Assembly: GCA_910573755.1 (NCBI GenBank)
Contig: CAJTBO010000004.1
Span: 186,001 to 250,000 of the forward strand
DNA from: Lachnospiraceae bacterium
GTDB taxonomy: Bacteria > Bacillota > Clostridia > Lachnospirales > Lachnospiraceae
Length of the DNA: 64,000 nucleotides
Direction of reading: 5' to 3'
Part shown: piece by piece, positions 27,933 to 54,666 of the stretch
Layout: the number at the start of each line of letters is the position of its first letter
Position numbering within the stretch: position 1 is the first letter of the stretch
Translations under genes and position numbers: made by a program
The notes under the pieces: generated by a model
Told to the model about the DNA's origin: nothing
Databases searched by the model: none
What the model saw: the letters and a program-made list of their open reading frames with translations, nothing else

Positions 27933-27972
27933 CTTTTTATTCCCGTCCCCGCAAATTGCATAATTTCCGCAG

Positions 27973-28124
27973 CATCAGCCCGTCTGCTTCCTCCCGACTC
28001 ATATCCCCGGCATCGGCCCGTCTGCTTCCTCCCGACTCATATCCCCGGCATCAGCCCGTCTGCTTCCTTCCGATTCATATCCCCGGCATCGGCCTGTCTG
28101 CTTCCTTCCGATTCATATCCCCAG
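27973..28124. repeat. Four tandem copies of a 38-bp unit at the end of folE
   Basis: Exact 38-bp periodicity (27973, 28011, 28049, 28087), four copies with a few substitutions. In coding orientation each unit contains GGGGATATGAATCGGAAG. The copy nearest folE contains the folE stop codon, so the array probably arose by repeated duplication of the gene's 3' edge. There are no spacers, so it is not a CRISPR array. It fills the folE-HD intergenic gap. Confidence 0.9.
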
Positions 28125-28670
28125 CAGCCGAAAAAAACTCTCCTGCAGCCGTGCATCCTCCCGAAAAGCCCCTTTCACGGCATAAGTAACGGTCTTACTG
28201 CCGGGCTTTTTGATCCCTCGCATAGTCATACACATATGCTCCGCCTCCGTCAGCACCATCACTCCCTTCGGAGACAGATGTTCCATCACCGCCTCCGCGA
28301 TCTGCTCCGTCATACGCTCCTGAAGCTGCAGCCTTTTCGCGTAAACCTCCACACATCTCGCCAGTTTACTGAGCCCCACGATCCGTCCGTCCGGAATATA
28401 GGCGATATGCACTTTTCCGAAAAAGGGCAGCATATGATGCTCGCACATGGAATAGAACACGATATCCTTCTCCAGTACCATCTCCGTCTTTTCCGTCACA
28501 AACGTTTTAGACAGGATCTCCTTCACGTCCATCTCCATCCCGCCGCAGATCTCTCCATACATCCGCGCGATCCGATCCGGTGTCTCGATCAGCCCTTCCC
28601 GTCCGGTATCTTCGCCGATTCCCTTAAGCAGCAGTCTAACGGCCTCTTTTACTTTTTCCTGATCTATCAT
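28113..28670 (-). CDS. folE: GTP cyclohydrolase I
   Basis: 185 aa. It converts GTP to dihydroneopterin triphosphate, the first committed step of folate synthesis. Motifs: [20 protein letters not shown] with Cys and His zinc ligands, [25 protein letters not shown], and [17 protein letters not shown] with the second Cys ligand. The N-terminus ([21 protein letters not shown]) is typical. Its start overlaps the end of folC by 35 nt, indicating coupling. The stop lies inside the 38-bp repeat array. Confidence 0.97.
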
Positions 28671-31124: not shown

Positions 31125-31568
31125 CTATTTATCATGCGACGCTTTCTTACTGTATTTCTCCTCACAGTATTTACACCGGTAAATTTCCTTTGCTTCATCA
31201 GCCAGTATAAAAATGTGAGGAAGTCCCTGCTCTATGGAAGTAATACACCGGGGATTGTGGCAATGGATCACGTTTTTGATCTCTCCGGGCAGATGAAGCG
31301 CCCTCTTCTCTACAATCTCTCCCTTCTGTATCACATTGATCGTAATATTATGATCTATATACCCTAAAATATCAAGATTTAATGTATTGATATCACATTC
31401 CACCTTGATGATATCCTTCTTTCCCATTTTATTGCTGCGTGCATTTTTGATGATCGCAACCGTACAGTCCAGCTTATCAAGCTGCAGATATCTGTATATT
31501 TCCATACTCTTCCCGGCTTTGATATGATCCATCACGAAGCCTTCTTCTATTTTTCCCACATTCAGCAT
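31125..31568 (-). CDS. pyrI: Aspartate carbamoyltransferase regulatory subunit
   Basis: 147 aa from the ATG at 31568, with AGGAG 8 nt upstream inside a repeat-family copy. The nucleotide-binding N-terminal domain (VGKIEEGFVMDHIKAGKSMEIYRYL) binds CTP/ATP. The C-terminal zinc domain has four Cys in CHNPRC and CKYC. It confers allosteric control on PyrB. An upstream open extension to 31667 is repeat sequence and not part of the protein. It follows pyrB after a 40-bp tandem repeat array. Confidence 0.95.
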   Translation of the reverse strand: MLNVGKIEEGFVMDHIKAGKSMEIYRYLQLDKLDCTVAIIKNARSNKMGKKDIIKVECDINTLNLDILGYIDHNITINVIQKGEIVEKRALHLPGEIKNVIHCHNPRCITSIEQGLPHIFILADEAKEIYRCKYCEEKYSKKASHDK

Positions 31569-31576
31569 TTTGTAAT

Positions 31577-31595
31577 CTCCTATTTCAGTACCGCA
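31577..31595 (-). repeat. Repeat-family copy carrying the pyrI ribosome-binding site
   Basis: In coding orientation it reads TGCGGTACTGAAATAGGAG; the final AGGAG is the Shine-Dalgarno of pyrI. The same sequence with two or three substitutions precedes trpX (38614-38633) and dnaG (54541-54559). Confidence 0.8.
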
Positions 31596-31680
31596 GACAT
31601 CCTTCCAGTACAATCCTGACCTAAAACAATCAACAGCCGCTATGCGTCTGTTAATTGTTTTTTGCACTGTTCGGATATCT

Positions 31681-31800
31681 GCTGTTTTTTCAGTACCGCA
31701 GATATCCTCCCCGGATAACCGCTGTTTTTTCAGTACCGCAGATATCCTCCCCGGATAACCGCTGTTTTTCCAGTACCTCAGATATCCTTCCCGGATAACC
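31681..31800. repeat. Three tandem 40-bp repeats between pyrB and pyrI
   Basis: Units start at 31681, 31721 and 31761; the first two are identical and the third differs at a few positions. In coding orientation each contains TGCGGTACTGAAAAAACAGC, i.e. the repeat-family core with AAAACAGC where the pyrI-proximal copy has AATAGGAG. They start one base after the pyrB stop codon. Confidence 0.9.
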
Positions 31801-31801
31801 G

Positions 31802-32716
31802 CTACCTGTTCAGTTCCAGCAAAGTCAGGATCAGCGCCATGCGGACATATACCCCGTACTGCACCTGTTTAAAATAGACCGCCCTTTCATCATCATCCAC
31901 CTCAACGGAAATCTCATTCACTCTCGGCAGCGGATGCAGCACCAGACAGTCCGGCTTTGCCAGATTCATTTTCGCCTTATCCAGAATATAGAAATCCTTT
32001 AACCGCACATAATCTTCTTCGTTAAAGAATCGCTCCCTCTGCACTCTTGTCATATATAACAGATCCAGTTCGGGAATGCAGTTCTCCAGACTGATCACCT
32101 CTTCATAAGGAATCTTCTTTTCCTTCAGCATCTCTATGATATAGTCGGGAACCCGCAGCTCTTCCGGGGAAATAAACCGAAACGTAACATTCTCATAACG
32201 TACCAGCGCATGGATCAGAGAATGCACGGTGCGCCCGAATTTCAGATCTCCGCAGAGTCCCACCGTAAAATTGCCGAGACGCCCTTTCAGCGCACGGATC
32301 GTCATCAGATCCGTCAATGTCTGTGTCGGGTGCTGATGCCCACCGTCCCCGGCATTGATGATCGGGATCGAGGAATGGGAAGCTGCCACAAACGCCGCCC
32401 CCTCTTTCGGATGCCGCATAGCGCAGATATCTGCGAAACAACAGATCACACGGGTCGTATCCGCAACACTCTCCCCTTTCGATGCAGAGGAGGACGCCGC
32501 GTCGGAAAACCCGAGAACGCTGCCGCCCAAATTCAGCATAGCCGTCTCAAAACTCAGCCTTGTCCTTGTACTCGGCTCATAAAAACAGGTAGCCAGTTTT
32601 TTTCCGGCACAGGAATGGGCATACTTTTCAGAATTTTTTTCAATATCGTCCGCCAGATCAAACAGCGCATCCAGTTCTTCGGTCGAAAAATCCAGAGGAC
32701 TTAAAAGATGATTCAT
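31802..32716 (-). CDS. pyrB: Aspartate carbamoyltransferase catalytic subunit
   Basis: 304 aa. It condenses carbamoyl phosphate and aspartate in pyrimidine synthesis. The carbamoyl phosphate site is [16 protein letters not shown] (about residues 46-61), with the SSASKGES loop, [17 protein letters not shown] and [16 protein letters not shown] lies upstream of the ATG at 32716. No PyrR-type attenuator was seen in the short leader. The operon pyrB-pyrI gives the allosteric holoenzyme. Confidence 0.97.
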
Positions 32717-35246: not shown

Positions 35247-35428
35247 TGTTCACATCTCCTTTTTCTAATAGTATCGGTTAAGAAGATAACCTATTACAAA
35301 AATTATATAATATTTTTGTGTGGAAGACTACTATTTTTTCCAAGATTTGTGATCTATCATAACAGTTCAGCCTTCGGCTTCTCTGCTGCGGAATCCGCCC
35401 CGATTTCCCCCGGCGCACAGATGCCGTC

Positions 35429-35504
35429 CGGCTTTTATCCAGTCTCTTCGCTGCACCGGCACAGCCCGGCTTTTATCCTGTCTCTTCGCTGCACCGGCAC
35501 AGCC
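35429..35504. repeat. Two tandem 38-bp repeats between trpZ and the chemoreceptor gene
   Basis: Copies start at 35429 and 35467 (plus-strand CGGCTTTTATCC), with the start of a third at 35505; one internal difference. They fill most of the 290-nt gap, which also holds a TTCAGCC-TTCGGCTTC segment (about 35366) that recurs near 37397. No gene is visible in the gap. Confidence 0.8.
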
Positions 35505-35537
35505 CGGCTTCCCCCCGTCTGCGTACAGTTAGTTCTC

Positions 35538-37443: not shown

Positions 37444-38604
37444 CTACTCAAATTCCTTTGCAGTGGTGATTTCCTTCAATTCGCTGCACATTCCTTCAAA
37501 CATACTGTAATCCAGTCCGATCTCCTGCGCCGTATCCGTGTTCACCGTGGCGATGCCGTTATCCAGAGATACCACCGGCACAGCCGCAGGGTCTTTTCCG
37601 TTTACCAGAATGTCCGCCGCCATATCCGCGGTCGCTTTTCCCAGTTCCACATAATTTACGCCGTAGCCGCAGAACGCGCCGTTTAAGGCAAAGGAATCCG
37701 CTCCGCCGTAGTGGGGAATTTCCGCTTCCGTGAATTTTTCATAAATTGCCAGCTCCGCCGTCATGATCGTATTATCGGTGGGCGTAAACACCGCGTCTAC
37801 GCCTGCCGCTGTCAGCGCGTCCGCCGCCAGCATCACTTCATCGTTGGTGGTTCCCGTCTTTTCCACTACTTCCACATTCTTTTCCTGACAATACGCCTTT
37901 GCGTCTTCTATCGGCTCTCTGGAAGCATCTTCGCTCTTATTATAGAGCAGTCCCACCGTTTTGATATCAGGGTTTGCCGCAAACATCAGATCCATCACAG
38001 CCTTTGTGTTGAGCGCGTCTGACGTACCTGTCACATTAGACCCGGGCGCCTCCAAAGATGCCACCAGTTTTGCGCCCTCCGGATCGCTGACCGCGGAAAA
38101 TACAACCGGTATCCGGCAATCCTCCGTTGCCGCCTGCATAATCACTGCCGCCGGCGTGGCGATCGGTATGATCACATCCACTTCCTCCGCAATAAGCTGC
38201 TGTGCGATCTGATTCAGCATGGTAGAGTCCGCCTGACCGTTAAAATTGTAATCTGCATAGTCAAAAGTGACGCCAAGTTCCTCCCCTTTTGCGTCCAGCT
38301 GCTCGCAGAGAGCGCTGTTGATCTGATTCAGGGACGCATCATCCACAAACTGCACGATTCCGACTTTATATACCGCTCCGTCGCCTGCCGTCTCCTGCGT
38401 GCTTTGGGATGCTTCCGCTTCCTTTGCCGTCTCCTCATTCTCATTGCCTTCCGCAACATAGACGGACGTCGGACCGTCGGCGCCGCCGATCATATCCTTT
38501 TCACTTCCGCAGCCCGCCAGCATACCCGCCGTTACGGCTGCGGCAAGTAATGCCGCGCCTGCTTTCTTTCCTGCCGTTTTCAGTAACATAGATCTGTTTC
38601 TCAT
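37444..38604 (-). CDS. trpX: ABC transporter substrate-binding lipoprotein (tryptophan)
   Basis: 386 aa. Lipoprotein signal peptide with lipobox LAGC (Cys about residue 32), then an acidic Glu/Thr-rich linker, then a PF04392 two-lobe binding fold (VGIVQFVDDASLNQI, IIPIATPAAVIMQAAT, PVVFSAVSDPEGAKLV, TVGLLYNKSEDAS, AVFTPTDNTIM). It would deliver the ligand to TrpY. Its Shine-Dalgarno GGAGG lies in a copy of the intergenic repeat family, and a T-box transcription attenuator lies further upstream. Confidence 0.88.
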   Translation of the reverse strand: MRNRSMLLKTAGKKAGAALLAAAVTAGMLAGCGSEKDMIGGADGPTSVYVAEGNENEETAKEAEASQSTQETAGDGAVYKVGIVQFVDDASLNQINSALCEQLDAKGEELGVTFDYADYNFNGQADSTMLNQIAQQLIAEEVDVIIPIATPAAVIMQAATEDCRIPVVFSAVSDPEGAKLVASLEAPGSNVTGTSDALNTKAVMDLMFAANPDIKTVGLLYNKSEDASREPIEDAKAYCQEKNVEVVEKTGTTNDEVMLAADALTAAGVDAVFTPTDNTIMTAELAIYEKFTEAEIPHYGGADSFALNGAFCGYGVNYVELGKATADMAADILVNGKDPAAVPVVSLDNGIATVNTDTAQEIGLDYSMFEGMCSELKEITTAKEFE

Positions 38605-38613
38605 AATTTTTTG

Positions 38614-38633
38614 CCTCCTATTCCAGTTCCGCA
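38614..38633 (-). repeat. Repeat-family copy carrying the trpX ribosome-binding site
   Basis: In coding orientation TGCGGAACTGGAATAGGAGG; its GGAGG is 9 nt from the trpX ATG. Equivalent copies lie before pyrI and dnaG. Confidence 0.8.
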
Positions 38634-38941
38634 GATGCCCCTCCGGTACACCCTATCCGAAGACTAATTTCCAGTCGCTTCCGCTTCTGTAAATTGTCTT
38701 GTGCACTCTCTGGGCATCTGCTGTTTTCCTGTTCCGCAGATGCCCCTCCGGTACACCCTATCCGAAGACTAATTTCCAGCCGCTTCTTCGTCTGTAAATT
38801 ATCTTGTGCACTCTCCGGGCATCTGCTGTTTTCCTGTTCCGCAGATGCCCCTCCGGTACACCCTATCCGAAGACTAATTTCCAGCCGCTTCTTCGTCTGT
38901 AAATTGTCTTGTGCGCTCTCCGGGCATCTGCTGTTTTCCTG
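38627..38941. repeat. Three tandem 105-bp repeats in the trpX leader
   Basis: The sequence TTCCGCAGATGCC starts at 38627, 38732 and 38837, and TTCCGCATCCCG at 38942, giving an exact 105-bp period and three units that differ at only a few bases. Because 105 is divisible by 3, a plus-strand frame stays open through the array as 35-residue repeats; I regard that frame as an artefact. The array lies between the T-box terminator and the trpX start, so it is transcribed whenever the T-box reads through. Confidence 0.92.
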
Positions 38942-38979: not shown

Positions 38980-39296
38980 AAAAAAACCGCCCCAGACATA
39001 TTGTCTGAGACGGTAATAAACACAGTTTATTATCGCGGTACCACTCGACTTGGTGTAAAACACCCACTCTGTCATGTACTATCATACATGCCGGATTGAT
39101 AACGGGTTCGGTTCCCGTCGCTCCCTACTGGCAGACACGCCGCTTTCTGAAGCGCCCTCAGAAGTCCATTCCATAACGTTCCCCGTACTGCAATTCCACC
39201 ACCTGCAGCTCTCTGTACCGGTTCCGGCTACTTACTACTCTTCCTCAACGGTTTGCAATATTCTGTTCTGAAGAATTCTCTATAAGAATCTTCATG
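38980..39296 (-). promoter_or_regulatory. T-box leader RNA, probable tryptophan specifier
   Basis: On the minus strand the T-box sequence AGTGGTACCGCG is at 39045-39034. A 13-bp terminator stem (ACCGTCTCAGACA against TGTCTGGGGCGGT, 39014-38986) follows with a T-run. Upstream are the Stem I signs GAGGAAGAGTAGTAAG, CAGAGAGCTGC, GGTGG and GGAACG, and the specifier segment GAATGGACTTCTGAG. TGG at 39168-39166 fits a Trp codon followed by A. Uncharged tRNA-Trp would stabilise the antiterminator and switch on trpXYZ. Confidence 0.9.
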
Positions 39297-44101: not shown

Positions 44102-45319
44102 TTACTTCTGTAAGAACAACTCTTTCAGCGCATCCTCTTTCAGTTCCGAACCGATCACGCAGAATTTTCCGGTCACATCGGGCACGCCCGTCCGAACTTC
44201 CGCCTCGCCCGGCACATAATCAAAATGAATCCAGCTTCCGTCCGCACAGGGAACCATTCCCTTCGCTCTCAGGACAATGCCGTACTCTTTCTCCCGGTCC
44301 AGTTCATCCAGAATATCTTCAATCTGCTCCTTCTCATAGACCGCCGCCGTTTCCATTCCCCAGCTTGTGAATACCTCATCCGCATGGTGATGGCCGTGAT
44401 GATCATGGTCATGATCGTGACAGCCGCAGCTGCAGCCTTCTCCGTGATCATGGTGATGCTCATGATGCTCTTCGTGATGATGGTGCGCATGCTCCTCTTT
44501 GTCATGATGGTGATGATGCTCATGCTCGTCGTGATGGTGATGCTCATGTCCCTCTTCATCATGAGAGTGATGGCATCCATGCTCTTCTTCATCATGATGG
44601 TGGTGGCCATGCTCTTCTTCGTCGTGGTGATGATGCTCATGTCCCTCTCCATCATGATGGTGATGATGATGTTCTTCGTCATGGCGCGCGAGTACTTCCG
44701 CCATCAGTTCCGCCTCCAGATCAGCCGCTCCTTCTATTGTCTCCAGAATTTTTGTACCTTCCAGCTCCTCCCAGGGTGTTGTGATCACTGTCGCTTTTTC
44801 GTTGTGCTGTCTTATCAGCGCAACAGCTTCCTCAATCTTCTCCTGTTTCATGGAGCCGGTACGGCTGAGTATGATCGTTCCTGCATATTCGATCTGATTG
44901 ATGAAAAACTCACCGAAATTCTTCATATACATCTTGCATTTGGAAGCATCCACCACGGCTACGGCACTGTTCAAATGCGTTTCTCCGCCTGCCTTTACAT
45001 TTTCCACCGCCTTCATCACATCAGAAAGCTTGCCCACTCCTGAAGGCTCTATCAAAATCCTCTCCGGCTGATAGGTCTCCAGTACCTCCACCAGAGAAGT
45101 CCCGAAATCCCCTACCAGAGAACAACAGATACAGCCGGAATTCATCTCTTTAATCTCAATACCCGATTCCTTTAAAAATCCGCTGTCAATCCCGATCTGT
45201 CCGAACTCGTTCTCAATCAGCACCACTTTTGTCCCTGCCAGCGCATCCTTCAACAGCTTCCTGATCAAAGTAGTCTTTCCCGCGCCTAAAAATCCTGAAA
45301 CAATATCAATCTTTGTCAT
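44102..45319 (-). CDS. CobW/ZNG1-type G3E GTPase with very long His-rich insert
   Basis: 405 aa from the ATG at 45319 (AAAGGGTG upstream); the extra 35 codons to 45424 are not needed. Walker A GFLGAGKTT (about residues 9-17), metal motif GCICCS, SGVGKLSDV, a guanine-binding-like SRTGS, and the C-terminal CobW domain (VLRAKGMV, WIHFDYVPGEAEV). Residues about 213-315 (44378-44682) are a run of His, Asp, Glu and Gly with dozens of His, a probable zinc or nickel store. Such proteins act as metallochaperones. A palindrome overlaps the promoter region. Confidence 0.9.
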   Translation of the reverse strand: MTKIDIVSGFLGAGKTTLIRKLLKDALAGTKVVLIENEFGQIGIDSGFLKESGIEIKEMNSGCICCSLVGDFGTSLVEVLETYQPERILIEPSGVGKLSDVMKAVENVKAGGETHLNSAVAVVDASKCKMYMKNFGEFFINQIEYAGTIILSRTGSMKQEKIEEAVALIRQHNEKATVITTPWEELEGTKILETIEGAADLEAELMAEVLARHDEEHHHHHHDGEGHEHHHHDEEEHGHHHHDEEEHGCHHSHDEEGHEHHHHDEHEHHHHHDKEEHAHHHHEEHHEHHHDHGEGCSCGCHDHDHDHHGHHHADEVFTSWGMETAAVYEKEQIEDILDELDREKEYGIVLRAKGMVPCADGSWIHFDYVPGEAEVRTGVPDVTGKFCVIGSELKEDALKELFLQK

Positions 45320-45426
45320 TTTAATACCCACACCCTTTCTAAACGGGCAATTCTTTTTACCCGTAAATCCTGTTTCTCTGATCCCTATAAATGATTCTTC
45401 CCTATTTTCCTCCAAATCCTTCAACC

Positions 45427-47193: not shown

Positions 47194-47994
47194 TTAATAA
47201 ATTCCTTCTTCCCCTTCTTCTCCCATATACATCCTCCTGACAATGACAGCCAAAACTCCGATCATGATCAGAAGAACCGCTTCGAGTATCATAAGGGGTG
47301 TGTAATTTGACAGAAGCACCGTAAGCGCATCCACCAGAAAATGAATGCCGACCGCCAGAAAATAGTATTTCTTCATCCCGTATTTTACCGCTCTGTAAAC
47401 AAGGTAGGACAGACATATATGCAATGTGACCGCAGAAATCCGCTCCACTCCTGCAAGGAAAAACTGATAGCCCGGCGTGGTCCAGAGCACAGACAGTCCC
47501 TGAAGCGCCGTTTCCCTTCCAACGCCGTCTTCTATTGTCGAAAAAGCGCTCTCAATCTGTCCCGAATTGATCATAAGCGCCGCAATAAGATTGGAAATAC
47601 ATGTAAATCCGACGATCAGTATCGCCTCTATCCCGCCGTGCCCCACACCGTACATCACAGAACTTTCTTTCGAGAGACTTTTCTTCATCCAGAACTTCAT
47701 TGCCACAAGCCGCCCGGTTTCCTCGAACACCCCGGCGGCAAGTCCGCCATAAACCGCGAAAAGCCAAATATTTTCCCTCAGTGTTTCCCCAAAAAGACGC
47801 AGCATGATGCCATGCAGTATCTGCTCCAAAACCAGCGCAAATAAAACAAAAGTAAGCGCTCCTATCCCCGCACCGGCGACCCTTGCATGCAGTTTCACCT
47901 TCACCAGAATCAGCAGGACAACCGGCAGCCCTATCGCGATCACCGCCGAAAAAATAATCCCTGTTATTGCTACTATCGAAACCTCTCCAATCAT
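47194..47994 (-). CDS. YhfC family (DUF2324) predicted intramembrane protease
   Basis: 266 aa from the ATG at 47994, 8 nt after GGAGGTAAT; the frame upstream to 48051 is repeat sequence. About eight membrane segments. The family resembles CPBP/PrsW-type proteases: conserved EETGRLVAMKFWMK (Glu-Glu pair, about residue 92), YGVGHGGIEAILIVG (His and Glu) and GIHFLVDALTVLL (His and Asp). Activity and substrate are unknown. Last gene of the dgt-to-yhfC run; rnpB follows. Confidence 0.85.
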   Translation of the reverse strand: MIGEVSIVAITGIIFSAVIAIGLPVVLLILVKVKLHARVAGAGIGALTFVLFALVLEQILHGIMLRLFGETLRENIWLFAVYGGLAAGVFEETGRLVAMKFWMKKSLSKESSVMYGVGHGGIEAILIVGFTCISNLIAALMINSGQIESAFSTIEDGVGRETALQGLSVLWTTPGYQFFLAGVERISAVTLHICLSYLVYRAVKYGMKKYYFLAVGIHFLVDALTVLLSNYTPLMILEAVLLIMIGVLAVIVRRMYMGEEGEEGIY

Positions 47995-47997
47995 ACC

Positions 47998-48073
47998 CAT
48001 TACCTCCGACTCACAAACGTTTCGCTTTTTGTTCGTATCCCCCGCTTTCAACCCGGTCTATTCCTGTTCCGCA
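47998..48073 (-). repeat. Long-form dispersed repeat before yhfC
   Basis: About 76 nt, roughly 88% identical to 50538-50612 by eye. In coding orientation it begins TGCGGAACAGGAATAG and ends GTGAGTCGGAGGTAATG; GGAGG is the yhfC ribosome-binding site. The first 16 nt are the core of the repeat family also found before pyrI, trpX and dnaG. Confidence 0.85.
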
Positions 48074-48080
48074 TTCACCC

Positions 48081-49733
48081 TTACACTTTGAAGCAGCTTC
48101 CGCCTACAAACTCTCTGCAGATCGAATTATTCGGGATTGATGCGCTGTCCACCCCGAGGAAATAATTGAGGAACCGCAACAGACGTTTCGCCTCAAAAAA
48201 TTCCGGCTCTCCCTCCCTGATGCTGAAAAGAAGGGGTTCCGCATACTGCTTCAACACTGCCAGTTCATATACCAGCGCGGAATTAAACATCATATCCGCC
48301 TCCTCCTGGAACGGGAAAATATTCTCCTCCTCGCCCCGTCTTACCGACGGCCACATCTGAATCGTCCGCTTTGCGGAAGCATTTCTTGTTCTTGCATCCC
48401 GCACAATACGCCGCAGCAGACGTGCATCCGTCGTAGGAATCCTGTTATGGTCGTCAATATTCAGGCTTGTTAATGCGCTGATATAAATCTTAAATTTGCT
48501 GTCTTCCGGCAGAGAATAGCACATTTTCGGATTCAGACCGTGAATCCCCTCTATTACAAGGATATCCTCTTCCTCCAGCTTCATCATATGCCCGTTATAT
48601 TCACGGTGCCCTGTCTTAAAATTAAAGTACGGCAGTTCCACCTTTTCCCCGCCGAGAAGCCTTAACATATTCTGATTGAATAATTCCACATCAATCGCGC
48701 CGAGACACTCAAAATTGTAGTCGCCCTTTTCATCCCGCGGCGTATCTTCCCGGTTCACAAAATAATCATCCAGACTGATCAGGTGCGGCACTTTTCCGAG
48801 AGCACGAAGCTGTATGGATATCCTGTTTGCAAAAGAAGTCTTTCCGGAAGAGGACGGCCCGGCTATCATCACAAATTTTACATGGGAATGGCTCACCACC
48901 TCCTTGGCGATCTCACCGATACGGCGCTCCTGCTCGGCTTCCTGCAGCAATATCATCTCCTGCATCCGGTTGCTGCAGATCACGTCATTTAACTCGCCCA
49001 CGTTTTCGATCCCTACACGGGCGCCCCAGTCTGTCGACTCTTTCAACGTCCTGAACAGTTTTTCCTGCGGCTTAAAGGGTTTTAATGCAAGAGGGTCCTT
49101 TCGATCCGGCAAAACCAGCATAAACCCTTCCTCATAGGGAAGTACCTGAAACTCTTTCACATAAGATGTATCGGGCAGCATATAGCCGTAATAATAATCA
49201 TAATATCCGTCCAGACAATACAGATTGACGCCTGAGCTCCTGCGGTAACGAAACAGCTTTTCCTTCGCCTTCAGACCGTACTTACGGATCAGCTTCATGC
49301 CCTGCACCATAGGATAATACTTTTTTGTGATCGGCAGTTTTGCCGCTGCCATCTCCTGCATCCTGCTCCGGATCTCTCCCGCCAGTTTCTCCGTGATCTC
49401 CAGATTTCCCTTTACGGTGCAGTAATAACCGTTGCCCACCGTAAACTCCATTTTCAGTTTTTCCAGATTGTCCCTGCCCACAATATCCGTTATCGCCTTC
49501 AGGAACATAATCTTCGCCGTTCTGATATACGCCCTGTAGCCGGTCGCATCCCGCAGTGTCAGAAAAGAGACCTCACAGTCTTCTTCGATCACCTTATGTA
49601 ATTCCTGCATTTTTCCGTTTACGACCACCAGCGCAATCTGATTCTTGTACTCCTCCTGAAACTTTGACGCTGCCTCTTCAAAAGTTACTCCTTCCGCGTA
49701 TTCGGTCGTAATTCCGTTTATTGTTACCTTCAT
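48081..49733 (-). CDS. TGS-domain nucleoside (uridine) kinase
   Basis: 550 aa. The N-terminal TGS-like domain (about residues 1-60, MKVTINGITTEYAEGVTFEEAA) and a threonyl-tRNA-synthetase-like second domain (to about 210) are followed by a P-loop kinase of the uridine kinase type: IAGPSSSGKTSFANR (about 290), SLDDYFVNREDTPRDEKG, VIEGIHGLNPKM and LLRRIVRDARTRNASAKRT. The architecture is common in Clostridia. Likely phosphorylates a nucleoside; the substrate has not been told from sequence. Twenty nt after nif3. Confidence 0.9.
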   Translation of the reverse strand: MKVTINGITTEYAEGVTFEEAASKFQEEYKNQIALVVVNGKMQELHKVIEEDCEVSFLTLRDATGYRAYIRTAKIMFLKAITDIVGRDNLEKLKMEFTVGNGYYCTVKGNLEITEKLAGEIRSRMQEMAAAKLPITKKYYPMVQGMKLIRKYGLKAKEKLFRYRRSSGVNLYCLDGYYDYYYGYMLPDTSYVKEFQVLPYEEGFMLVLPDRKDPLALKPFKPQEKLFRTLKESTDWGARVGIENVGELNDVICSNRMQEMILLQEAEQERRIGEIAKEVVSHSHVKFVMIAGPSSSGKTSFANRISIQLRALGKVPHLISLDDYFVNREDTPRDEKGDYNFECLGAIDVELFNQNMLRLLGGEKVELPYFNFKTGHREYNGHMMKLEEEDILVIEGIHGLNPKMCYSLPEDSKFKIYISALTSLNIDDHNRIPTTDARLLRRIVRDARTRNASAKRTIQMWPSVRRGEEENIFPFQEEADMMFNSALVYELAVLKQYAEPLLFSIREGEPEFFEAKRLLRFLNYFLGVDSASIPNNSICREFVGGSCFKV

Positions 49734-49752: not shown

Positions 49753-50535
49753 TTATGCTATCCAAAACGGATTTTTTTCCGGTGCCGTATAAACCTTCAC
49801 ACCGGTCAATTTTCTTTTGCAATACTCTTCCATATAGGGCACAAATATCTTTTCCAGCCCGTAATGCCCCGCATCGATGATCGCAAGTCCCTGCTCCACC
49901 GAATCGATACCCTCATGATGATCAATATCACCCGTTATCAAAACATCCGCTCCCAGCCTGACTGCATCCTCAATACAGGTTTTCCCTGATCCCGGACAGA
50001 CTGCCGCCATCACAATGGTTTCCGCCGGCGTTCCGAACACTTTTACCTGTTCAATATGACAGCGGCTTTTTACATACTCGGCACATTCCGCCAGTGTCAT
50101 AGGTACGGGAAGCGCCCCGATCCTGCCGATGCCCTCTTTGGAAAGTTCATCCTCATAAGTCACGGACAGTACTTTTCTATCCTCCAGACCGAGCTGCTCC
50201 GCCACCGCATCCGCCATACCCATCACGTCAAAATTGGTGTGCATGGCATAGTAGCACATCCCGCTTTCCGCCAGTGTGAGTATCTTGTCTCCGATAAAAT
50301 GACTCCCTGCAACCCGCTTCAACGGATGAAAAATCATAGGATGATGCGTGAGCAGCATATCCGCCCCCGCTGCCTTCGCCCCCTCGATCACTTCCTTTGT
50401 CGCATCCAGTGCAATATAGATGGCAGATACCTCTTTCTCTTCCCTGCCGCAGAGCAGCCCCACATTATCCCAGCTTTCCGCAAAGGATTTCGGGGATACC
50501 TCCTCCAGACATTCCATTATTTCATAACATTTCAT
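49753..50535 (-). CDS. Nif3-like dinuclear metal center protein (YqfO family)
   Basis: 260 aa, start at 50535 with GGAGG 7 nt upstream supplied by a repeat-family copy. Metal-ligand motifs: SWDNVGLLCG, LLTHHPMIFHP (His-His), DVLITGDIDHHEG and IDAGHYGLEK with Glu/His ligands. Short form without the inserted PII-like domain. Often annotated GTP cyclohydrolase 1 type 2, but its reaction is not settled. It habitually follows trmK, as here. Confidence 0.92.
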   Translation of the reverse strand: MKCYEIMECLEEVSPKSFAESWDNVGLLCGREEKEVSAIYIALDATKEVIEGAKAAGADMLLTHHPMIFHPLKRVAGSHFIGDKILTLAESGMCYYAMHTNFDVMGMADAVAEQLGLEDRKVLSVTYEDELSKEGIGRIGALPVPMTLAECAEYVKSRCHIEQVKVFGTPAETIVMAAVCPGSGKTCIEDAVRLGADVLITGDIDHHEGIDSVEQGLAIIDAGHYGLEKIFVPYMEEYCKRKLTGVKVYTAPEKNPFWIA

Positions 50536-50537
50536 AC

Positions 50538-50612
50538 CATAACCTCCGACTCACAAATGCTTCGCTTCTTGTTCGTATCCCCGCTTTCAGCTTGGTCTAT
50601 TCCAGTTCCGCA
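50538..50612 (-). repeat. Long-form dispersed repeat between trmK and nif3
   Basis: About 75 nt, partner of 47998-48073. It overlaps the last codons of trmK (Ala-Glu-Leu-Glu-stop reads GCGGAACTGGAATAG) and ends with TCGGAGGTTATGG, giving the nif3 ribosome-binding site. A second copy of the core lies 54 bp upstream in the trmK frame. Confidence 0.85.
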
Positions 50613-51457
50613 TATGTACTCCCAGTACACACTTTGTCCGTGCCTATGCTGTTTTCCGGTTCCGCATATGCACTCCCGCCACACACTAACCCGCGCACGT
50701 CCCGTATTCTGCGGATCTCCTCCTCCACCTGAGTTCTTCGCTCCGGATAAGCCGAAACTTCCTTTAGTATTCTATTCTGCTGTCTTTCCCACCAGTCCAG
50801 ATATTGCGCAAGTACCGGATGTTTGTCTCCGATCAGGCAGGGGCCAAACTCGTCCTCCAGACTTTCCAGATATGCCGCTTCCATACCAGAGTCTTTCTGC
50901 TTCCTCCCGGAAAACCGCATCTTATCCCCCATCTTTTCCGTACTGCCATAGATCGTGCTTTCCGCTCCGGAAGCCTTCCCCTCCGCCAGCATCATCGGAT
51001 AAAACTTCCCGTCCTCCAGCACCATATCCTCTTTCCGGATCATAAGCCCGTTCTCCCGCAGATATTTCCGCACAGATCCAGGTTCCGACTGTGGCTGCAG
51101 CACCATATAGCGCAGGCTGTTTCGCTTTTCGGGATAGTCTTCCAGAATCTTTACGATCAGCCTGCCCCCCATTCCGGCAGCTATGATACACTCCGCTTCC
51201 CCCGTATTTAACTTTTCCATCCCGTCCGATAAACGGGTTTCTATGTAGGAAGAAAGACCGGCGCCTTCAATATGCTCCCTCGCCCGGGATAAGGGCCCCC
51301 GGTTAATATCCATGGCGATCACCTTCGGACAGATCCGTTTCTGTACCAGATAAATTGCCACAAATCCGTGATCACAGCCGATATCGCAGACACTGACGCC
51401 GCGGGGAACAAGATCCGCCACTGCCGACATTCTTTTTGATAAATTGAATTTTTGCAT
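50597..51457 (-). CDS. trmK: tRNA (adenine22-N1)-methyltransferase
   Basis: 286 aa, longer than the usual 225-240. SAM-binding Rossmann motifs: VCDIGCDHGFVAIYL (about residues 22-36), VIAMDINRGPLSRA, and IIAAGMGGRLIVKIL. It would methylate A22 in tRNA. An insert at about 180-205 has Ser/Lys-rich sequence. The last 30 residues (after RDVRGLVCGG) are two imperfect copies of a SAYAEPE/STYAELE element encoded by intergenic repeat sequence, so the C-terminal tail is probably an acquired extension. Directly downstream of rpoD. Confidence 0.9.
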   Translation of the reverse strand: MQKFNLSKRMSAVADLVPRGVSVCDIGCDHGFVAIYLVQKRICPKVIAMDINRGPLSRAREHIEGAGLSSYIETRLSDGMEKLNTGEAECIIAAGMGGRLIVKILEDYPEKRNSLRYMVLQPQSEPGSVRKYLRENGLMIRKEDMVLEDGKFYPMMLAEGKASGAESTIYGSTEKMGDKMRFSGRKQKDSGMEAAYLESLEDEFGPCLIGDKHPVLAQYLDWWERQQNRILKEVSAYPERRTQVEEEIRRIRDVRGLVCGGSAYAEPENSIGTDKVCTGSTYAELE

Positions 51458-52761: not shown

Positions 52762-54534
52762 CTAATCAAGTGAAATATGCATTTTGTTAAGTTCTTCCAA
52801 TGCTTTTTTTCCTTCGATCACCTGATTCAGCGCCGAAATGTCGGTTCCCAGCCTCTGAGAATAATATTCATAGCTGTTCCGCTTCACATTACAGACAATA
52901 TCATGCAATGCCCGCTCCGCTTCGCTCTTATTTTCCAGCCTGCCGATTCCCGTATGAAAAAGCTGTGCCACCTCCCTCTGCTGCTCTTCCTCCTCAAAAA
53001 GATCCACCATGCCTGCCGGATCGGCGCCTCCTTCTTCCAACTGCACAAAAAGCTGCTCCGCCACCTTTTTATAAAGTTCATCCGTAAAATCCTCCGCCGT
53101 GATAAACTTTTTGATCTTCGGATAGATCTCCGGTCTGTCCGTCAGCCAGGTGATCAAAAGCCTCTGCGCCTTTTTGGCGTTATCCTCCGGTGTCTTTTTC
53201 GACTGTATGCCGGATTTCGGCCTCTCTATGGGCCTCGCCAGTCCGGTCTGGGCCGCCGCGGAATTGACCAGCTTCCTTAAATTTTCATGGCCGATATGAT
53301 ATTTTTCCGCGATTGCCTCCATATAATTGGCGCGCTCCGCCTCTTCGGAAAAACCGCAGAGTTTTTTTGCGATCTCCCGATGAAACTTTGTCTTTCCAGC
53401 CGGATCGCTTAAATCAAACTCTCCGGACAGGATACGGATCTCAAACAAAAAGCTGTTTTCCGCTTCCGAGAGCCGCTTTTCAAAAGCCTCCGCCCCTTCC
53501 GCCTTGATAAATTCATCCGGATCTTTATAAGGCGCAAAGCTGATCACTTTTCCCGTAAGCCCCGACTCCCTCAGAATCCCTATGGCACGCAGCGCCGCCT
53601 TTATGCCGGCGCCATCAGAATCATAGGCAAGCAGCACCTCCTCCGCATACCGCTTCAGAAGGGAAGCCTGTCCTGTTGTAAAAGCTGTCCCCAGAGAAGC
53701 CACCGCCTGCGTAAAGCCCGCCTGGTGCATCGAGATCACATCCATGTAGCCTTCACACAGGATAAACTGATTTTTTCTGGAACTTCTGGCAAAATTCAGC
53801 CCGTAGAGGTTCCTGCTCTTATCAAATACCGGCGTCTCCGGTGAATTCAGATATTTCGGCGTTCCATCCCCCATCACCCGGCCGCCGAAACCGATCACCC
53901 GGTGATTGATATCCTGAATCGGAAAAATAACTCTGTTCCAGAATTTATCATGAACGCCATAGCGCTCATCAAAAGTGCTGACACCCGCTTCCTGAAGCAA
54001 GGCATCCGAAAAGCCCTTCTCCTTCAGATAACGGGAAAGATCATCACTTGTCTTATTTGCAAAACCCAGCCCGAATTTATGTATTGTTTCCTCACTTAAC
54101 TGTCTGTTCTTTAAATAGGTAAGCCCCTGTTTTCCCTGAGGCGCCCGAAGCTGATAGTAAAAATACTTTGCCGCCTCCTTATTTACGGCGAGAAGCCTTG
54201 CCCTGTGGTTTTCCTTGGCCCTTGCGGCTTCCGAATATTCCGCCTCCGGCAGCTTGATCCCGGCACGGTCCGCCAGCATCTTTACCGCCTCCTGAAAGCT
54301 CGCGTTTTCATACTGCTGCAGAAAAGTGATCACATTGCCGCCGGCGCCGCAGCCGAAACAATAGTACATCTGCTTTCCCTGAGACACCGAAAACGAAGGG
54401 GATTTCTCATTATGAAAAGGACACAACCCGAAATGATTTGCACCCTTTTTCTGCAGCCGCACGTAACCGGAGACCACATCCACTATATCGTTTCTCGCCC
54501 TGACTTCCTCTATTACTTCCTGCGGATAAAGCAT
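52762..54534 (-). CDS. dnaG: DNA primase
   Basis: 590 aa. CHC2 zinc finger (CPFHNEKSPSFSVSQGK ... YYCFGCGAGG, about residues 38-65), the catalytic core with FGGRVMGDGTPKYLNSPETP, the Toprim Glu in LCEGYMDVISMHQAGF and LAYDSDGAGIKAA, and a helical C-terminal helicase-binding part with lower conservation. It makes RNA primers at the replication fork. Its Shine-Dalgarno GGAATAGGAG lies in a copy of the intergenic repeat family. Confidence 0.97.
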   Translation of the reverse strand: MLYPQEVIEEVRARNDIVDVVSGYVRLQKKGANHFGLCPFHNEKSPSFSVSQGKQMYYCFGCGAGGNVITFLQQYENASFQEAVKMLADRAGIKLPEAEYSEAARAKENHRARLLAVNKEAAKYFYYQLRAPQGKQGLTYLKNRQLSEETIHKFGLGFANKTSDDLSRYLKEKGFSDALLQEAGVSTFDERYGVHDKFWNRVIFPIQDINHRVIGFGGRVMGDGTPKYLNSPETPVFDKSRNLYGLNFARSSRKNQFILCEGYMDVISMHQAGFTQAVASLGTAFTTGQASLLKRYAEEVLLAYDSDGAGIKAALRAIGILRESGLTGKVISFAPYKDPDEFIKAEGAEAFEKRLSEAENSFLFEIRILSGEFDLSDPAGKTKFHREIAKKLCGFSEEAERANYMEAIAEKYHIGHENLRKLVNSAAAQTGLARPIERPKSGIQSKKTPEDNAKKAQRLLITWLTDRPEIYPKIKKFITAEDFTDELYKKVAEQLFVQLEEGGADPAGMVDLFEEEEQQREVAQLFHTGIGRLENKSEAERALHDIVCNVKRNSYEYYSQRLGTDISALNQVIEGKKALEELNKMHISLD

Positions 54535-54540
54535 ACCAGA

Positions 54541-54559
54541 CTCCTATTCCAGTACCGTA
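54541..54559 (-). repeat. Repeat-family copy carrying the dnaG ribosome-binding site
   Basis: In coding orientation TACGGTACTGGAATAGGAG, followed 6 nt later by the dnaG ATG. The equivalent segment recurs at 54649 with AAAATCAG in place of AATAGGAG, 102 bp away, next to the dgt stop. Confidence 0.75.
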
Positions 54560-54666
54560 AGCGCCCTGCCGGTGCCGATACGGCAGAGCAATTTACAGCC
54601 GCAACACGTCTGTAAATTCTCTGGGCTCCCTCCGGGCTCTTACTGATTTTCCAGTACCGTAAGCGC
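54547..54666. repeat. About 102-bp duplicated segment between dgt and dnaG
   Basis: TTCCAGTACCGTAAGCGC (plus strand) occurs at 54547 and 54649, so one full unit plus a partial copy fill the junction, starting one base after the dgt stop codon. In between lie GC-rich segments (CTGCCGGTGCCGATACGGCAG) able to form a hairpin. Confidence 0.75.

Follow-up and report, generated by a model that had tools for sequence, protein, structure and literature searches.

Results

Repeats upstream of pyrI, a trpX-like gene and dnaG

The window, i.e. the whole 64-kb stretch of DNA analyzed here, carries three unrelated-looking genes, pyrI, a trpX-like gene and dnaG, whose starts are each preceded by the 19-mer TRCGGWACTGRAATAGGAG ending in a Shine-Dalgarno (SD) motif. 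An earlier note on this DNA had described near-identical 19-nt sequences before these starts. A pattern search of the window found the 19-mer in three exact copies on the minus strand (Table 1), with the trpX coordinate corrected from 38614 to 38615. These copies are real and far above chance: with up to three mismatches the window contains eight 19-mer matches against a shuffle mean of 0.06, and none of 100 shuffles reached eight. When two mismatches are allowed, the source genome (G000), a 4.88-Mb draft of 87 contigs, contains 57 matches, including 30 exact ones, whereas the reversed-pattern control has 2; this is far above the three matches at which the earlier note had placed the refutation of a repeat family. 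Regarding the trpX-like gene, TrpX was its sole NCBIfam match, at 221 bits and under the cut-off of 390.

Table 1. Repeat units and associated features in the window
Feature	Downstream gene or ORF	Positions	Strand	Evidence
Terminal direct repeat with SD	pyrI (31125-31568)	31577-31595	-	exact match; gene NCBIfam NF002063
Full hairpin unit	pyrI	31583-31685	-	model R1, 91.8 bits
Shortened tandem units (~40 nt, core deleted)	pyrI	31688-31805	-	tandem repeats; R1, 33.3 + 15.2 bits
Terminal direct repeat with SD	trpX-like gene (37444-38604)	38615-38633	-	exact match
trpX array unit 1, gene-proximal, full	trpX-like gene	38621-38724	-	R1, 92.8 bits
trpX array unit 2, full	trpX-like gene	38726-38829	-	R1, 92.0 bits
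trpX array unit 3, full	trpX-like gene	38831-38934	-	R1, 89.4 bits
T-box leader, adjoining the trpX array on its upstream side, outside the element	trpX-like gene	39003-39257	-	Rfam RF00230, 98.9 bits (gathering 93)
Possible degenerate unit	ORF 47194-48051	48061-48146	-	R1, 15.0 bits, E 0.12; GCGGAACAGGAATAGAC in sequence
Core-deleted unit	Nif3-like gene (49753-50535, TIGR00486)	50600-50652	-	R1, 34.0 bits
Terminal direct repeat with SD	dnaG (52762-54534)	54541-54559	-	exact match; gene NCBIfam TIGR01391
Full hairpin unit	dnaG	54547-54646	-	R1, 88.2 bits
Distal direct repeat of the dnaG unit, TACGGTACTGGAAAATCAG	dnaG	54643-54661	-	pattern match, 3 mismatches

The upstream copies that, according to the earlier note, keep the first half of the 19-mer and end in CAGC are equally real; they belong to tandem units of 105 nt at trpX and to shortened forms of 40 nt at pyrI. 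The trpX leader combines the T-box with three tandem hairpin units (38621-38934).

The core-deleted unit at the Nif3-like gene is parted from the gene start by another repeat, and the same junction carries four tandem units in genome G400. On the minus strand (50535-50600 and 48040-48060), this other short repeat, TAGACC.(A/G)G(C/T)TGAAAGC..., comes straight after the terminal GGAA of two degenerate units, in one case standing between the unit and the SD of the Nif3-like gene. A third copy lies behind a lone repeat of G399, at L282, which corresponds to L148. The window also contains imperfect tandem repeats with periods of 27 to 93 (44439-44683, inside ORF 44102-45424) and 38-nt tandem repeats (27972-28126, 4.1 copies; 35428-35510, 2.2 copies), the latter with a consensus unlike the hairpin family.

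The 19-mer is the end of a covarying hairpin unit

The 19-nt element of the earlier note belongs to a real family, but the 19-mer is merely the 3′ end of a hairpin unit of approximately 100-106 nt. This unit is composed of CAG[C/T]A (typically CAGCA), a locus-specific arm, a core hairpin (e.g. ...GTGCACAAGACAATTTACAGACGC...GCGGCTGGAAATT...), the complementary arm and TGCGGAACTGGAA; it is often repeated in tandem and is followed by T-AGGAG and the start codon. Across 30 loci, tandem units are joined through GGAA, a few A or T, and CAGCA, and T-AGGAG is found after the last unit only. Shorter forms include the 40-nt units of pyrI, lone repeats and core-deleted hairpins. One unit folds into a single long, interrupted hairpin, followed by a conserved and mostly unpaired tail, CGGAACTGGAA, whose sequence presents GGA every six bases.

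Analysis of a 20-unit alignment with RNAalifold revealed two-sided changes in 18 of 30 pairs. In a hand-adjusted structure, 23 of 31 pairs showed such changes and 91.3% of the cells were paired, compared to 76.1% after shuffling. The covariation score was 0.474 against 0.193 for shuffled alignments, none of 500 reaching 0.474, and at most 0.122 when the partner was slid, a control that is generous to the structure because the structure was derived from the same sequences. Five units folded alone gave z values from -3.4 to -6.8. Every centroid left the SD unpaired, as did four of the five minimum-energy folds; the fifth (L014) places two SD bases in a two-pair helix.

To assign the pairing to a strand, G-U and A-C cells were counted in sets of 55, 19 and 58 units, taken one per locus from alignments fitted to the model (the set of 55 includes one copy twice, through the overlap of L008 and L069). 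G-U exceeded A-C in the outer helix (19, 6 and 13, sum 38, versus 3, 0 and 1, sum 4), in the middle helix (45, 17 and 30 versus 9, 0 and 1) and in the inner helix (49, 9 and 37, sum 95, versus 28, 3 and 9, sum 40), where A-C cells are not rare. An independent alignment, A2, gave G-U/A-C counts of 3/1, 19/1 and 20/12 for the outer, middle and inner helices, and the middle helix contains a G-U pair conserved in 16 of 20 units. The excess of G-U favors pairing of the coding-sense strand, i.e. of the mRNA, and the conserved object is thus probably an mRNA hairpin.

The structure was also followed at orthologous sites, in 14 unit pairs picked by hand among those that are full in both genomes (the G000 dnaG unit enters two of the pairs). 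Among 434 cells, 54 were two-sided and compensated, 27 one-sided and still paired, 44 broken, 308 unchanged and 1 a gap. These counts suggest that individual sites retain their pairing, but the same picture could arise if one copy had been replaced by another. No Rfam family reached its gathering score over the window element or over seven further loci; the best sub-threshold resemblance, for one array, had an E value of 4.9 and was discarded.

Units nearly always lie immediately upstream of genes, in sense

In its own genome, the covariance model gave at least 108 matches with E ≤ 0.1 and at least 86 with E < 1e-7; both are lower bounds, since 150 of 3,306 first-look candidates were scored. 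The 86 units group into 55 arrays: 32 single, 16 double, 6 triple and 1 quadruple. For 53 of the 55, a same-strand start (frame of at least 60 codons) lies within 60 nt of the unit end, and within 19 nt in 51 of these 53. L085 and L086 are the two arrays without such a start, and by eye L085 has an ATG 16 nt further on that opens a short frame. On the other side, 54 of the 55 arrays follow the end of a same-strand frame (80 codons or more) by no more than 400 nt, and 38 of the 54 by no more than 50 nt. These placement counts derive from mechanical ORFs, and an antisense frame also starts near the 5′ side of 9 of the 55. A sense start was likewise found for 16 of 17 arrays of G013, taken from its best-scoring loci.

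In a hand count of the exact-19-mer loci, 76 of the 80 loci listed from 117 stretches were followed after 1-13 nt by a start codon whose frame has 45 codons or more, the exceptions being L120, L126, L138 and L174; this set requires a 19-mer that contains the SD and is therefore biased towards gene starts. The covariance model was built from SD-containing copies, but the SD itself is not required for a match. Among the 32 left flanks that remained of 246 after those with a left repeat were dropped, TAAA(A) was frequent by eye.

The downstream genes, such as dnaG, pyrI and the trpX-like gene, share no obvious function. Judged by reading their translations, further downstream ORFs resemble tkt, secD, alaS and pgk.

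The 11-mer CGGAACTGGAA occurs 157 times in the genome compared to 8 times when reversed. Isolated 11-mers were considered as lone repeats and rejected as a class: among 20 outside arrays, taken from 100 listed places of the 157 and judged by reading, four looked family-like and stood at gene starts (L351, L359, L360 and L364), while the others seemingly lay within open frames.

Within a contig, the 19-mer matches are nearly all on one strand, as could be expected of a single-stranded-DNA element (HUH, IS200 or REP-type) oriented by the replication fork. This coherence is striking, but gene strand bias can account for it (P 0.08; 22 arrays in 16 regions), and an orientation set by the replication strand was not retained. 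Moreover, the Y1_Tnp profile had no match in G013, G400 or G397, three of the eight element-bearing genomes, the first with 95 covariance-model matches. A RAYT/IS200 driver was discarded as Y1_Tnp does not track copy number, and we regard a single-stranded-DNA element as very improbable.

Relation to the Shine-Dalgarno sequence

In 25 of the 55 arrays the unit is immediately followed by TAGGAG, and in 51 the first base of the right flank is a T. Among genes with checked orthologues, TAGGAG was present in the last 24 nt before 10 of 12 element genes versus 8 of 123 others; three of these eight are element remnants, and the set of other genes includes mis-started ORFs, e.g. L330 at 5979, which begins inside an element. 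That the repeats reflect ordinary SD context or a chance similarity between leaders is practically untenable. Their final bases are indeed of the ordinary SD type, with AGGAG at 47 of the 123 other gene starts, but the scarcity of TAGGAG at those same starts, the shuffles, the reversed control and the covariation of a unit of about 100 nt all contradict this reading.

The earlier note had proposed that the repeat supplies the ribosome-binding site (RBS) of the downstream gene. Tandem copies join GGAA to CAGC, which means that the SD is not part of the duplicated stretch, and an AGGAG-type SD is also present at orthologous sites that are empty. The element is therefore not simply supplying the RBS; the enrichment of TAGGAG beside elements still makes a contribution possible. 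Either TAGGAG would be brought by the element, or sites of this kind would be preferred.

Predicted SD openness differed slightly between element genes and others, with median unpaired probabilities of 0.72 (48 genes) and 0.59 (89 genes), respectively (p=0.019); 51 of the 55 arrays had been submitted, three of which had no usable start or SD. The modeled SD-opening effect would thus be small to modest.

Turnover at orthologous junctions

Comparison by eye of the same junctions in relatives, which the earlier note had put forward as a check, revealed presence, absence and copy-number differences at orthologous sites; the states observed include arrays, single units, deletion forms, a lone repeat and the complete lack of an element. 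Among the seven genomes compared at the dnaG junction, G000 and G400 carry one unit, G184 carries two and a partial one, G399 and G402 have core-less repeat-like remnants, G403 has other sequence and G401 no element. At the pyrI junction, the array of G000 corresponds to an empty site with its own SD in G400 and to remnants in G403 and G184; no element was found there in G397 or G402. The trpX junction has three units in G000 and two with different arms in G403, while in G184 it has none and the T-box sequence seems to remain. For the permease gene after trpX, a unit stands right after the stop codon in G403 and a deletion form in G184, with none in G000. The junction of the tkt-like gene carries an array in G000 and is a clean empty site in G403, and another gene has a lone repeat in G399 versus a full unit and a partial match (34 bits) in G000. 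Shared sites also differ in copy number, with 1 versus 2 units (L007, G399) and 3 versus 1 (L084, G399).

A near-gene test against G399 gave approximately 5 shared sites, 8 in G000 only, 3 in the relative only and 117 in neither (n = 133), and against G403 approximately 2, 3, 2 and 54 (n = 61); these counts are rough because some shared sites were missed, e.g. L333 at 10672, where both genomes have the element. The orthologous junctions read contained no clean young insertion with a target-site duplication, and by eye many of the "absent" sites keep repeat remnants, so that much of the difference between species may be loss rather than fresh insertion. The earlier note had inferred a mobile or recombinogenic element landing in the gap from a stop codon to the following start. 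That the family is dispersed, recombinogenic and intergenic is borne out; recent mobility as its sole source is not, since several copies are old and common to sister species.

Two other repeats were encountered in the sequences examined. A palindromic intergenic repeat, CGTCGCC.CGCTTTCGCTCC, has four copies (L277 and L280 in G399, L237 in G402 and L240 in G397), and in G399 it occupies junctions where G000 has the hairpin family. A repeat with AAAGGCGCACGAG has three copies (L028, L086 and L276), and in L086 and L276 it adjoins remnants or a copy of the hairpin family.

These junctions also bear on the possibility of a conserved cis-regulatory RNA, i.e. a riboswitch or protein-binding leader that responds to one signal and was recruited by many genes. 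Strong covariation, a near-fixed distance to the start codon, the conserved unpaired tail with its regular GGA and the position behind a T-box at trpX would all suit such a leader. However, the downstream genes have no obvious common function, sister species often do not have the element at the same junction, and arrays of one to four units and core deletions are common. CsrA, considered as a binder of the GGA repeats, was present in all 11 genomes tested, three of them element-free, and was rejected since it does not discriminate between them. A regulatory RNA of this type appears improbable.

Distribution across species

With up to one mismatch, the 19-mer had any match in 14 of 397 sampled genomes of the family, and more than three matches in only three of them: 38 in G000, 40 in G184, of the same genus, and 48 in G013, of another genus, whereas G338, of the same genus as G013, had none. 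Counts ranged from 0 to 40 among the nine genomes of the source genus. The covariance model (E ≤ 1e-4, at most 150 candidates scored per genome) confirmed this patchiness, with 95 matches in G013, some of them partial, 11 in G397 and none in G338, G398 or G401. In a tree of eight of nine DnaG proteins (without that of G398), the element-free G401 is on a long branch, and one of the five inner branches is well supported.

The earlier note had named the same sequence at the same junctions in distant species as the mark of ordinary conserved leaders. This mark was not seen: none of 16 sampled proteins downstream of G013 arrays matched the 53 downstream proteins of G000 (BLASTP, E ≤ 1e-10). This result, together with 95 matches versus none within one genus, points to transfer or transposition as a probable part of the spread; complete loss of the family from G338 is an alternative that the counts also accommodate.

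A MITE-like, non-autonomous DNA transposon of no benefit to its host could be at the origin of this pattern; it would insert at many kinds of sites, the hairpin serving for transposase recognition and sense copies between stop codon and SD being those that survive selection. Patchy copy number among species of one genus, empty sites at orthologous junctions and the lack of a common downstream protein between the G013 and G000 arrays are in line with it. Convergent or downstream intergenic regions would nevertheless be the safest places for such an element, and pneumococcal repeats are in excess between convergent genes (see below), yet 53 of the 55 arrays lie 5′ of genes. In addition, the outer arms are complementary within a copy but different between loci, leaving no fixed terminal inverted repeat of the MITE kind, pairing is kept with two-sided changes at orthologous sites, and Y1_Tnp, the sole transposase family searched, was not found in three element-bearing genomes. 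We consider a MITE-like transposon possible, though unlikely.

Discussion

A proposed role as portable leader modules

Taken together, we read these repeats as a new family of small interspersed repeats placed in sense next to the RBS, told apart from the nearest known families by their descriptions. Our preferred explanation, to which we give a probability of roughly 55%, is that they work as portable mRNA leader modules. The family would have spread into these genera by mobility or horizontal acquisition, and its copy number would change by recombination between direct repeats. Once transcribed, the hairpin would stand just 5′ of the RBS, keeping the SD open; translation would be uncoupled from that of the preceding gene, and the hairpin may protect the mRNA beyond it against 5′ decay. 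The sense placement by the SD would reflect target choice, selection or both.

A more daring version is a self-spreading leader RNA that targets the RBS. Such an RNA would enter only in sense before the SD of expressed genes, possibly via an RNA step (mRNA-targeted or ribosome-associated integration), and would be kept as a good, insulated translation leader; we find it quite improbable.

The usual view of interspersed repeats in bacteria is that of parasites tolerated at harmless sites. The hairpin family is found almost only at a sensitive site, the gap between stop codon and SD of genes like dnaG, and in one orientation. Both the site and the orientation are uncommon for a DNA repeat that spreads, which raises the question of how a repeat chooses, or is held at, the RBS in sense. 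For the portable leader modules that we favor, matched junctions in close relatives, with an array, one unit, a deleted form, a lone repeat or an empty site, offer a means to measure how a repeat rewires operon expression.

Comparison with known repeat families

No description of the hairpin repeat was found in the titles and abstract starts of the open-licence PMC papers that ranked best in the literature searches. Like the REP, BIME and REPIN sequences, the hairpin family consists of high-copy intergenic palindromes. REPs, as far as their available descriptions go, measure 20-40 bp, are named with GTAG or CGTC tags and have been proposed to be mobilized by a Y1-type (RAYT) transposase, whereas the hairpin unit is of about 100 nt with locus-specific arms, and the co-occurring Y1/RAYT transposase that characterizes REPs and REPINs was missing, with 0 Y1_Tnp matches, from the three genomes searched (G013, G400 and G397).

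ERIC and Correia elements inside operons are likewise palindromic repeats that are active when transcribed: ERIC destabilizes upstream transcripts in one orientation and Correia elements are RNase III targets (PMC3049150, PMC2229807). Compared by description, they differ from the hairpin family in that the available text of these sources describes no confinement to the RBS side.

The TAACTGA direct repeats of marine Beggiatoaceae also adjoin start codons (PMC4679880). They are heptamers in sets of two to six, the available part of that report mentions no covarying hairpin of about 100 nt, and canonical ribosome-binding sites are described as rare in these bacteria, whereas the hairpin family is usually followed by an SD.

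By described properties, the nearest in kind are the BOX elements of Streptococcus pneumoniae which, with RUP and SPRITE, are likewise short and interspersed and whose transcripts are predicted to fold into stem-loops (PMC3049150). According to the accessible description, BOX is modular and expandable, and one copy lies inside a trp T-box leader; this likeness is between described properties and does not extend to the BOX sequence modules A, B and C. The two differ in placement: BOX, RUP and SPRITE are reported there as overrepresented between convergent genes, whereas 53 of the 55 arrays of the hairpin family lie immediately 5′ of a sense start.
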